A stretch of 64,000 nt of DNA from Bacteriovorax sp. GTDB taxonomy: Bacteria > Bdellovibrionota > Bacteriovoracia > Bacteriovoracales > Bacteriovoracaceae. The stretch spans positions 1-64,000 of the forward strand of contig JACMPM010000003.1 of assembly GCA_014377485.1 (NCBI GenBank), given 5' to 3'. How positions within the stretch are numbered: the stretch's first letter is position 1; each line of letters begins with the position of its first letter. A model generated the notes under the pieces. It did no database searches, was not told the origin of the DNA, and was given only the letters and a program-made list of their open reading frames with translations. Of this stretch, positions 55,160 to 60,362 are shown piece by piece. The translations under genes and the position numbers were made by a program.

Positions 55160-56014
55160 GTGAAAAATCTAAGACTGGTCTCTATTCTTTCACTCCTATT
55201 ACTTTTCTTTGCCTGCTCAAGAATTGATTTGGCAGCGAATTGGGCCGATACCTATATCTCACATCAGATAGATCATTATTTTGATATGAATAGTCTTCAG
55301 TCAAAATTATTAAAAAAATCATTAAAAGAGGATATTAAAGAAGTTCGAAAAATTATTTTCCCAAAACTTGCTTTAGATCTAGAGAGAATTGATGGAGATG
55401 TTGAAGGAGCTACTAATTTTAATGTACAGAAACTAGAGTCCTATAAGGTCAATTTAAGAAAAACTTTTGACGAAGGACTCATTATTTTCGAACCTAGTGC
55501 TCAGGAATTTGTTAATCAGCTTAATGCTTCACAATTAGAATCCTTTAAAAAGGAATTTGATAAAAAAACAAAAGATATAGAGTCTGAAGCTAGCGAGCCT
55601 GTCACTGCTAAGGATAAAAGATTTAACAAGATTAGAGAACAGTTAGAAGGCTGGCTGGGAATTTTATACCCAGAACAAAGAAAAGATATACAAATTTTTT
55701 GTAATGCAAATCCATTTCCATTTAGAGAGCAAGTTTTAAATCGCAATAAACTTTCTCGAGAGTTTCTTGAGGCTTTCCCAAATACAGAAAAAAGAAAGAA
55801 ATTTATTCATCAATTATTTTATAATTATGAATCTATGCGGGAACCCAGTTATGCAAAGGTAATAGATGAAGATCAACAAAAATATTTTGAACTCATATCG
55901 GTCATTTTAAATAAAATGAGCAACGAACAAAAGAAGCGTCTTTCAAAAACTCTGAAAGACAGAGTTGAACAGCTTAATAAATCTTCATTAACTAAAAAAT
56001 CTTCTGTTTTTTAA
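55160..56014 (+). CDS. DUF6279-like lipoprotein
   Basis: A 284-residue predicted lipoprotein (LLLLFFACSR) with the DUF6279 look: AANWADTYISHQIDHYFDM near the start, followed by an all-helical body (QSKLLKKSLKEDIKEVRK). The start is GTG with a poor ribosome-binding site, but an in-frame stop shortly upstream leaves little choice. Family function unknown; it should be anchored in the envelope. Confidence 0.7.
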   Translation: MKNLRLVSILSLLLLFFACSRIDLAANWADTYISHQIDHYFDMNSLQSKLLKKSLKEDIKEVRKIIFPKLALDLERIDGDVEGATNFNVQKLESYKVNLRKTFDEGLIIFEPSAQEFVNQLNASQLESFKKEFDKKTKDIESEASEPVTAKDKRFNKIREQLEGWLGILYPEQRKDIQIFCNANPFPFREQVLNRNKLSREFLEAFPNTEKRKKFIHQLFYNYESMREPSYAKVIDEDQQKYFELISVILNKMSNEQKKRLSKTLKDRVEQLNKSSLTKKSSVF

Positions 56015-56027
56015 TAATTAAAAAACA

Positions 56028-56062
56028 GAGGAAAATGCCCGCTTAATTGGACATTTTTCCTC
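56028..56062. terminator. Bidirectional terminator hairpin
   Basis: GAGGAAAATG and CATTTTTCCTC form a 10-bp stem with one bulged base, with A/T-rich flanks on both sides, between convergent genes. Confidence 0.7.
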
Positions 56063-56077
56063 ATCAAAGAATTTTAA

Positions 56078-56368
56078 CTAATGAAGCAGGGATTTGTTTT
56101 CTGATTTGTCAGAGCCATATGTTTTCACGATTTTATCGTATACTCCTAATAATAAAATAGTTGGTACCCATTGTCCGACAAAGGTTGCCCAGTCTTTTTT
56201 CTTTTTACTCATTGCAAAGCCTAACGATAAAGCGACTGCGCCCCCGGCCAATACTAAGAATATAGATGAAGGAATTTTTGCAGTTTGTTTTTCAATGGCT
56301 TTTGTTACTTTTCCTTCACTCATTGACTTGTTGCGTCCACTTTCTGTTAAAATTGAATTTGAATTCAT
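56078..56368 (-). CDS. Small membrane protein, unknown
   Basis: A 96-residue protein with two membrane segments (IFLVLAGGAVALSLGFAM and TFVGQWVPTILLLGVYD) joined by a basic loop (SKKKKDW). A perfect GGAGGTC precedes the ATG. It looks conserved but I cannot name the family. Confidence 0.65.
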   Translation of the reverse strand: MNSNSILTESGRNKSMSEGKVTKAIEKQTAKIPSSIFLVLAGGAVALSLGFAMSKKKKDWATFVGQWVPTILLLGVYDKIVKTYGSDKSENKSLLH

Positions 56369-56515
56369 ATGACCTCCGTATTTTTTTTGTTCATTCCTCC
56401 ATGCTTATCATGCAAGCGTTATACCATTCATATAATTAAACAATTAAATATTTTTTTAAGATAGGATTTGAAAATGCACCCAGATATTAGCAATTGTTAT
56501 CAGAATGCAAATTAT

Positions 56516-56986
56516 TTAATCTATGCATTGTAAAATTTTAACGCCAATAAACGCTGGTATGATCGCAAAGCCTCTGGCGATCATCCGCCACTGCCAGCTT
56601 GGAATTTATAAATTTAAATCCCTTCCAGTACAACTTGACCGGCGGCAAAAAGTGCAAGAGCAAAGTAAATTCCTGTGAGTCTTACTCCTAGAAGTGGAGC
56701 CAGTAATTTGTGAGATTTCTGAATTTCAATAATATTTCGAAACCCGTGATTGTAAAACACGGGCTCTGATAAAATTAAAATTGAGGAATTATAAAAATGG
56801 CGAGAAAATAGTGAAAAAGTATTATCGAATAAAATCTCATGATAAATCTTTTGGGCGATTTTTGAATTTTCCGTTGAACGAGTTGTGATTAGTGAAGAGT
56901 TTAAGTCGAGATTCATAGACTTTGCCTTCGTTATCTGAAGGAGAAAATGGTGTAGCGCAATTTTTTGGTAATTTATCCGATTTCAT
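56516..56986 (-). pseudogene. Decayed NRAMP metal transporter (mntH)
   Basis: Three pieces of MntH are readable on the minus strand. (1) An ATG at 56986 starts KSDKLPKNCATPFSPSDNEG, like the cytoplasmic head of MntH. (2) After a large deletion and frame change, 56614-56916 reads NLDLNSSLITTR, then NSSILILSEPVFYNHGF and IQKSHKLLAPLLGV followed by FALALFAAGQ and VVLEGI. The intact family has about 11 residues (NST...AGQ) between GQ and the EG(F). (3) After a frameshift 56516-56585 reads SWQWRMIARGFAIIPAFIGV, the next MntH helix. Two or more deletions plus frameshifts show it is dead. Confidence 0.8.
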
Positions 56987-57167
56987 CTAGAAAAATATAG
57001 GTGTGGGAAAGCAAATCTAGCAAAGTTTTTTACTCCTACCAGATATATCAATCAGTTGCATTTTTGGATGTATTTCTTTTTTTGTAAAGCTAGATTCTTA
57101 TGAAACAAGAATAAATATATTTTTTTATATGTTCATCTGTAAATTCAAGCCTTAAAATATAGTTAAA

Positions 57168-58976
57168 ATGAGACAACAAAAACTTCAACACATCCTAAAA
57201 GAAACTTTTGGCTATTCAAGCTTTCGTTTCGAGCAGCTAAACATTATCAATTCTATCTTAGATGGAAAAGACTCACTAGCGATTATGCCAACAGGTGGGG
57301 GAAAGTCCCTTTGTTATCAAATTCCCGCACTTTTTCTTGATGGTGTCACACTCGTCATCTCTCCGCTTATTTCTCTCATGCAAGACCAGGTTATGAACTT
57401 AAAAGAATATGGAGTTCATTCTGTTTTTTTAAATTCATCGCTTTCGTATAAAGAAAGTAACAAAGCAAAAGCCCAGATTCTTGAGGGCGGTGTTAAAATT
57501 GTTTACGTCTCTCCCGAAGGAATTTTAAGCCCAGCTCTTTCTGAATTCTTTAACCAGATAAAAATATCTTTGATCGCTATCGATGAAGCTCACTGCGTAT
57601 CGCAATGGGGACATGAATTTAGAAAAGATTACACCAGACTCGGAGAACTTAAATCAATGTTCCCGGACGTCACTGTTGTGGCCCTTACTGCAACGGCCGA
57701 CGCCAAAACGAGAAATGATATCTCAATGCAATTGAGATTAAACAATCCAAATATTTTTGTTTCATCGTTCGATCGCCCCAATATTAATTATATGATTTTA
57801 GAGCGCACTGATGAAATGAAACAGATTGATGAGTTTATCAAGGCCAACCATAAAAATGATACGGGAATTGTTTATTGCCTCTCTCGCGATAAAGTCGATC
57901 GAGTGGCGTTGGCGCTTAAAAAATTAAAATACAATGCCATCCCTTATCATGCGGGTCTTACAAAAGAGCAAAGAAGCACCAACCAGGGTCTTTTTAATAC
58001 TGAAGAAAAAGTTATCGTAGTTGCCACCATTGCTTTTGGAATGGGGATTGATAGACCGGATGTTCGTTTCGTGGCCCATCTCGATTTACCAAAAAGTATC
58101 GAGAGTTATTATCAGGAAACTGGTAGAGCGGGACGAGACGGTAAAGCATCTAATGCCTGGATGATTTATGGCCTCCAGGATGTCGTAAAGCTCTCTCAAA
58201 TGTTAGAGACGACTGAAGCTGATGAGAGTTATAAAAAAGTAGCGCGCTTTAAATTAGATTGTATGCTGGCCTTATGTGAGGCCGGAAGTTGTCGAAGAAG
58301 ATATCTGCTTTCATATTTTGGTGAAGAATCAAGCGGCCAGTGTGGCAATTGTGATACCTGTATAGTTCCTCCGCAATTATGGGATGCAACGATCGATGCT
58401 CAAAAAATTCTCTCAACTATTTTTCGGACCAATCAAACTTTTGGGGCCGGGCATATTATAGAAGTTTTAAGAGGCAGTAAAAACGCCAAAGTCACGGATC
58501 GAAATCATCATGCATTGTCGGTTTATGGGATTGGGGCCAATCAGCCCCGCGATCATTGGAATAGTATTTTGCGCCAGCTTTTAAATTTAAATTATATAAC
58601 AATCAAAAATTGGGAATACAGAAGTCTGGGTTTAACTTCAAAGTCCCAAGAAATTTTATCGGGTGTCATTAAGCTTGAACTTAGAAAACAGACGTTTGCT
58701 ATTGGCAAAGAAGACAAAAAAGAAAAGAAAGTGGCCAAGACTACTGATAGTGTTCATGGGCGTAATGATTTATTTGATTCACTAAAAGATCTTCGAAACA
58801 AAATTGCGAAAGAAAAAGGCATGCCTTCTTATATCGTTTTTAATGATAAATCACTTCATGATATGTGCATGATTATGCCGAGAAATGATTCTGAGTTTTT
58901 ACTGGTCTACGGAGTTGGGCAAAGTAAGCTTGAGAATTACGGGAAAGCTTTTTTAGAAGTTGTTAGACAATACTAA
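57168..58976 (+). CDS. recQ: ATP-dependent DNA helicase RecQ
   Basis: A 602-residue 3'-5' helicase. Motifs are [13 protein letters not shown] (motif 0), [48 protein letters not shown] and [10 protein letters not shown]. The zinc region has [17 protein letters not shown] and CGNCDTC, followed by a winged helix (RQLLNLNYI). An HRDC domain ends the protein ([19 protein letters not shown]). It is complete and of normal length. It acts in recombination and fork repair. Confidence 0.95.
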
Positions 58977-59793: not shown

Positions 59794-60126
59794 TCAATCA
59801 AGTATTAATGCAGCTATCTTTGAAATGACTTCGGAAATAACTTCCGAATTTGTCTTCTCTATGAACTGAATCTCTCGTGCCTTCCAATCTACTTTTTTTA
59901 AATAATCAGAAAGAATTGCACCTTTAATCTTTTTCCCATTGAGGATAACTTCAAAAGGATAACCTTTGATATTAGATGTAATAGGGCAACAGACTGCAAG
60001 TCCTGTCTTTTTATTATACTCGGTCGGAGATAATATAAGTGCGGGCCTTTTACCCTTTTGCTGGTGTCCGGCCTGAGGGGTAAAGTTAAGCCAAACGATA
60101 TCGCCCTTTTTGGGTATGTATGCCAT
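59794..60126 (-). CDS. mazF: MazF-type toxin (endoribonuclease)
   Basis: A 110-residue PemK/MazF-family protein. The typical start is IPKKGDIVWLNFTPQAGHQQ, followed by KGKRPALILSPTEYNKKTG and CCPITSNIKGYPFEV. The Arg of KGKRPALI and the Thr of PITSN are the usual catalytic pair. It should cut single-stranded mRNA at specific short sites. Its ATG shares a base with the mazE stop (TAATG), so the two are translationally coupled. Confidence 0.92.
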   Translation of the reverse strand: MAYIPKKGDIVWLNFTPQAGHQQKGKRPALILSPTEYNKKTGLAVCCPITSNIKGYPFEVILNGKKIKGAILSDYLKKVDWKAREIQFIEKTNSEVISEVISKIAALILD

Positions 60127-60362
60127 TACCAGACCTCATTTCCTTCAACTTCAAATTCTTCTTCTTTGTGAAGATTTTTTTTTGTGATTTGTCCGAGTAA
60201 GGTTGAGAGTGATTGCTTTTTTTTACTTGGGAATATTATGATCGTACCATCTTTAGTTTCAATTTCGACTTCAGAGTTTTCATCTAAATTTGCTTTTTCG
60301 ATAATTGCCTTAGGTATTCTAATGCCTAAAGAATTTCCCCATTTTTGAATTTTTGCGCTCAT
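60126..60362 (-). CDS. mazE: MazE-type antitoxin
   Basis: A 78-residue AbrB/SpoVT-fold protein (AKIQKWGNSLGIRIPKAIIE) with a flexible acidic C-terminal tail (HKEEEFEVEGNEVW) that would thread into MazF. It should neutralise MazF and repress its own promoter, where a TATAC/GTATA inverted repeat lies. GGGAG precedes the ATG. Confidence 0.92.
   Translation of the reverse strand: MSAKIQKWGNSLGIRIPKAIIEKANLDENSEVEIETKDGTIIIFPSKKKQSLSTLLGQITKKNLHKEEEFEVEGNEVW

Follow-up and report, generated by a model that had tools for sequence, protein, structure and literature searches.

The segment 56456-56986 of the minus strand of the window (that is, of the whole stretch of 64,000 nucleotides analysed here) is, to judge from its sequence, a collapsed mntH gene of the NRAMP/SLC11 family, now a pseudogene. 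We hold it to be very probable that this pseudogene sits at the ancestral locus of the gene, a second copy having taken over the uptake of Mn(2+)/Fe(2+) while the original was shrunk by deletions.

Anatomy of the remnant

A sequence-only reading had pointed to an open reading frame of 100 residues with an NRAMP/MntH pattern at 56614-56916, and this frame is indeed present on the minus strand. It matches the Pfam Nramp profile (PF01566) with 50.9 bits (E=1.6e-13, cut-off 29.8 bits) over positions 175-268 of 357, and the NCBIfam MntH model (NF001923) with 48.9 bits (E=3.8e-13), the latter only over positions 229-321 of 439 and far under the whole-protein cut-off of 430 bits. These scores mean that the frame encodes a fragment of an NRAMP protein and that the likeness is not a matter of chance. 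The same reading had described a dead gene in pieces, separated by large and small deletions and by frameshifts, and this description stands: a tblastn search that used the intact MntH encoded on contig C18 of this genome recovered five blocks on the minus strand, in order from start to stop codon, with the frame changing along the way.

Block A (56915-56986) starts at the original ATG (56986-56984) and holds the N-terminal residues 1-24 (MKSDKLPKNCATPFSPSDNEGKVY), after which codons ~25-230 are deleted. Block B (56635-56913), which makes up the bulk of the 100-residue frame and carries the Pfam match, corresponds to residues ~231-323. It is followed, after a deletion of 11 codons (the SSTITGTIAGQ region), by block C, VVLEG (56620-56634), and by block D (56540-56617), where the frame has shifted and residues ~342-367 are interrupted by an in-frame TAA (LNL*IPSWQWRMIARGFAIIPAFIGV). 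After a further deletion of ~46 codons, block E (56459-56539) brings the C-terminal residues ~414-440, again with an in-frame stop, and the gene ends on the TAA at 56458-56456, which blastn aligns with the stop of the intact C18 gene. Beyond the 100-residue frame tblastn thus yields the N-terminus with its start codon at 56986 and the block IARGFAIIPAFIGV, the N-terminal scrap and the second-frame piece already seen by the earlier reading, and in addition the C-terminal KILQCID*IICILITIANIWVHFQILS-stop. The extent of 56516-56986 proposed at that time was right at 56986; its 3' end was not, since the C-terminal block had been missed and the true footprint is 60 bases longer, down to 56456. Upstream, a leader of ~58 bp (56987-57044, minus strand) resembles that of the intact C18 gene (blastn piece of 132 bp, 70%, covering leader and first codons).

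In all, the large deletion of ~206 codons and the two smaller ones have removed ~263 of 440 codons, or ~60%, and 531 bp are left where the intact C18 sister has 1323 bp. The remnant, whose blocks lie in differing frames and contain two stops, no longer has a frame of ~440 aa open across the full NRAMP profile; compared with the intact homologue, it carries the disabling mutations expected of a pseudogene. The metal-site signature of canonical NRAMPs consists of DxxN in helix 1 and A/CxxM in helix 6 (PMC8806188). The corresponding motifs of the intact gene, DPGN and ATVM, both fall inside the deleted codons ~25-230 and are missing from the remnant; because both are lost, the remnant should not be able to yield a working transporter. 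Rfam returned nothing but a snoRNA match below threshold within the pseudogene, which we read as chance, and a search of plasmid DNA matched recQ only.

In a draft genome of 147 contigs, one might suspect that an intact gene was misassembled or misread. Yet base-calling errors would not be expected to produce three distinct deletions (of 206, 11 and 46 codons) together with two stops and a protein ~39% different from the nearest relative, and this explanation seems to us scarcely conceivable.

Substitution pattern of the remnant

Substitutions unique to the remnant are distributed over codon positions 1/2/3 as 24/19/21, against 10/1/25 for those unique to the intact sister (Fisher p=7e-4); this count is limited to the well-aligned central block, because a nucleotide alignment had put the N- and C-terminal blocks in the wrong place. 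On the protein tree the branch of the remnant measures 0.63 and that of its C18 sister 0.05. The even spread and the long branch together suggest a decay without selection: the remnant bears no sign of purifying selection, as a pseudogene should.

One may ask whether the 100-residue frame is instead a new small membrane protein, domesticated from a piece of NRAMP. It is true that the frame stays open across 100 codons, but its substitutions show no preference among codon positions, it has other pieces of the decayed gene on its flanks, and the stretch is missing from the closest relative, G004. Nor is the length of 100 residues conserved in other species: among the relatives searched we found no counterpart of ~100 aa, all other matches to the frame lying within frames of ~440 aa. 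We consider such a domestication extremely improbable. The homology scores, the order of the blocks and the neutral codon spread bear out the earlier warning against annotating the frame 56614-56916 as a gene; it is to be annotated as a pseudogene.

The locus in related genomes

In the window, the order is recQ (57168-58976, plus strand), the mntH remnant, a gene of 96 aa with no assigned function (56078-56368, minus strand) and a DUF6279 lipoprotein gene (55160-56014, plus strand; Pfam PF19795, 57.5 bits), recQ and the lipoprotein gene being syntenic markers on the two sides. The sequence-only reading had proposed that an intact mntH be sought at this locus in relatives, and there is one in G011, where it is followed by an ABC-2 operon (an ATPase and two permeases), the 96-aa gene and the DUF6279 lipoprotein gene. 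G001 and G005 have recQ, the ABC-2 operon, the 96-aa gene and the lipoprotein gene without mntH, and G013 has the ABC, 96-aa and lipoprotein genes in this same order as far as the end of its contig; the 96-aa gene adjoins the operon in all four genomes. The window has lost the ABC operon, and a search for ABC-transporter remnants between its 96-aa gene and recQ found none. In G004, the closest relative (RecQ 93%), the 96-aa gene region joins the region upstream of recQ directly: the blastn alignment of window positions 56000-57200 with G004:C79 skips from 56428 to 57039, leaving out 610 bp (56429-57038).

The synteny with G011 and the patterns in the sister species place the remnant at its ancestral site. 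Hence we take the locus to be, as gene order indicates, the ancestral mntH locus of the lineage, with an intact orthologue in the same neighbourhood of G011, and we read the sister species as displaying different stages of its loss. They would form a small decay series in one genus: mntH with the ABC operon (G011), the ABC operon only (G001, G005, G013), the remnant only (window) and nothing (G004).

A second, distant type of mntH (53-54% to C18) occurs in G002, G006 and G012 (L016, L017, L018). It also adjoins an ABC-2 operon of the same type, in the opposite orientation and with a Cdd1-family gene between the two, and in the full-length tree it is placed separately from the G011/C18 type. 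Of the two permeases of the lost ABC-2 operon, the second has only one relative found in the window's genome (L193, G000:C19:4332-5132); it is 32% identical, and the match contains an in-frame TAA. Between recQ and the conserved gene downstream, at 59794-60362 on the minus strand, adjoining genes of 78 and 110 aa resemble by eye a toxin-antitoxin pair of the MazE/MazF type.

The intact NRAMP genes of the genome

Three intact NRAMP-family genes of the window's genome score above the Pfam cut-off. One of them, on C18, encodes a canonical MntH (574 bits, NCBIfam cut-off 430) that has both DPGN and ATVM. The proteins of C145 and C124 have DxxG in helix 1 and, in helix 6, TxxT (C145) or TxxS (C124). 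NRAMP-related Mg(2+) transporters (NRMT) bear the signature DxxG-TxxA/T (PMC8806188); as the C145 and C124 motifs match or come near it, import of Mn by these two proteins is improbable. Neither of them matches the remnant significantly, and they are not its source.

The remnant is 61% identical to the C18 MntH, 55% to that of G011 and at most 43% to the other proteins compared. It groups with C18 (UFBoot 100; AU test p 0.979, both alternative groupings being rejected at ~0.02), and 18 informative residues against 7 favour this grouping, the whole test bearing on ~160-170 residues from a fast-decaying sequence. The C18 MntH thus appears to be the closest relative of the remnant among the proteins compared.

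As regards its position, the right part of C18 aligns to G004:C218 at 80%. At its left end C18 shares an overlap of 141 identical bases with contig C8, which in turn aligns next to this part on G004:C218. This flanking synteny argues against contamination and points to C18 being chromosomal. Some 3 kb between the flanks are missing at the same site of G004; they hold an OsmY/BON-like lipoprotein gene, mntH and dps (L012:339-2232, L188:1-721).

The sequence-only reading had taken the dead locus to mean that import of manganese or iron through NRAMP was lost, the pseudogene being the record of this loss. The locus itself is dead, and several relatives are without a canonical MntH (G001, G003, G004, G005 and G013, where only other NRAMP types are present). 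Against this, three NRAMP-family genes are intact, one of them a full canonical MntH on a contig tied to the chromosome by synteny; that claim did not hold, and such a loss appears to us very improbable. Provided that C18 is native to the strain, its intact gene rules the loss out. The C18 copy is the one that would be expected to serve NRAMP import of Mn.

A further NRAMP remnant, interrupted by two in-frame TGA codons, was noticed in the relative G012 (G012:C152, L072:4464-4844). It is nearest to the NRMT-like protein of the C124 type (39%), which suggests that in G012 the decay affects a different type of NRAMP.

Origin of the second copy

The C18 copy might be a xenologue, gained together with dps from a related species and displacing the native gene, instead of a duplicate made within the genome; this would be compatible with the pseudogene reading. 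In favour of this, G004 lacks the island in which the C18 mntH lies with dps and the OsmY/BON-like lipoprotein gene, and the C18 dps is not firmly grouped with the genome's other dps (low support in the tree). But the native remnant has the C18 mntH as its sister, neither 129 family genomes nor a GTDB scan (best 56%) revealed a nearer donor, and base composition is unremarkable. We regard such a gain as plausible, though somewhat short of probable. No tRNA that might serve as an integration site was found on C18 or C8, and an Rfam search at the island gave nothing. In G012 a dps-like gene (L180, L186; G012:C38:3082-3548) has its sequence divided between two frames and looks like a second broken dps.

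Whichever way the second copy arose, the history that we favour, a decayed original at the ancestral locus with a second copy in its place, would run as follows. In the lineage a second mntH would have arisen, as a relocated duplicate or as a gene transferred from a near relative, and would have taken over Mn(2+)/Fe(2+) uptake; the original, released from selection, would have shrunk by successive deletions, complete removal, as seen in G004, being the next stage. The C18 copy could come from an unsampled relative. It is also possible, though we rather doubt it, that mntH left the ABC-2 neighbourhood for a new stress-response island (dps and the OsmY-like lipoprotein gene), coupling Mn uptake to protection against iron and oxidative stress, while the old copy decayed stepwise across the sister species.

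Discussion

Two annotation errors are avoided here: a hypothetical gene of 100 aa, and a loss of NRAMP metal import deduced from one dead locus. Our literature search found no paper joining mntH, pseudogene and Bdellovibrio. The event itself is of a known kind, a relocation or replacement followed by ordinary gene decay.

Finally, the remnant can be set beside known systems. When it is compared with MntH, the proton-coupled Mn(2+) transporter of the NRAMP family (NF001923, PF01566), its blocks align in order along the whole gene, but ~60% of the codons, including DPGN and ATVM, are gone and the frames are broken. NRMT-type or near-NRMT motifs are carried in this genome by the C145 and C124 proteins (PMC8806188). 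With the bacterial pseudogenes that follow duplication, relocation or xenologous displacement, the remnant shares an intact sister elsewhere, a stepwise deletion at the old locus and a neutral codon pattern, and it shows no notable difference from them.
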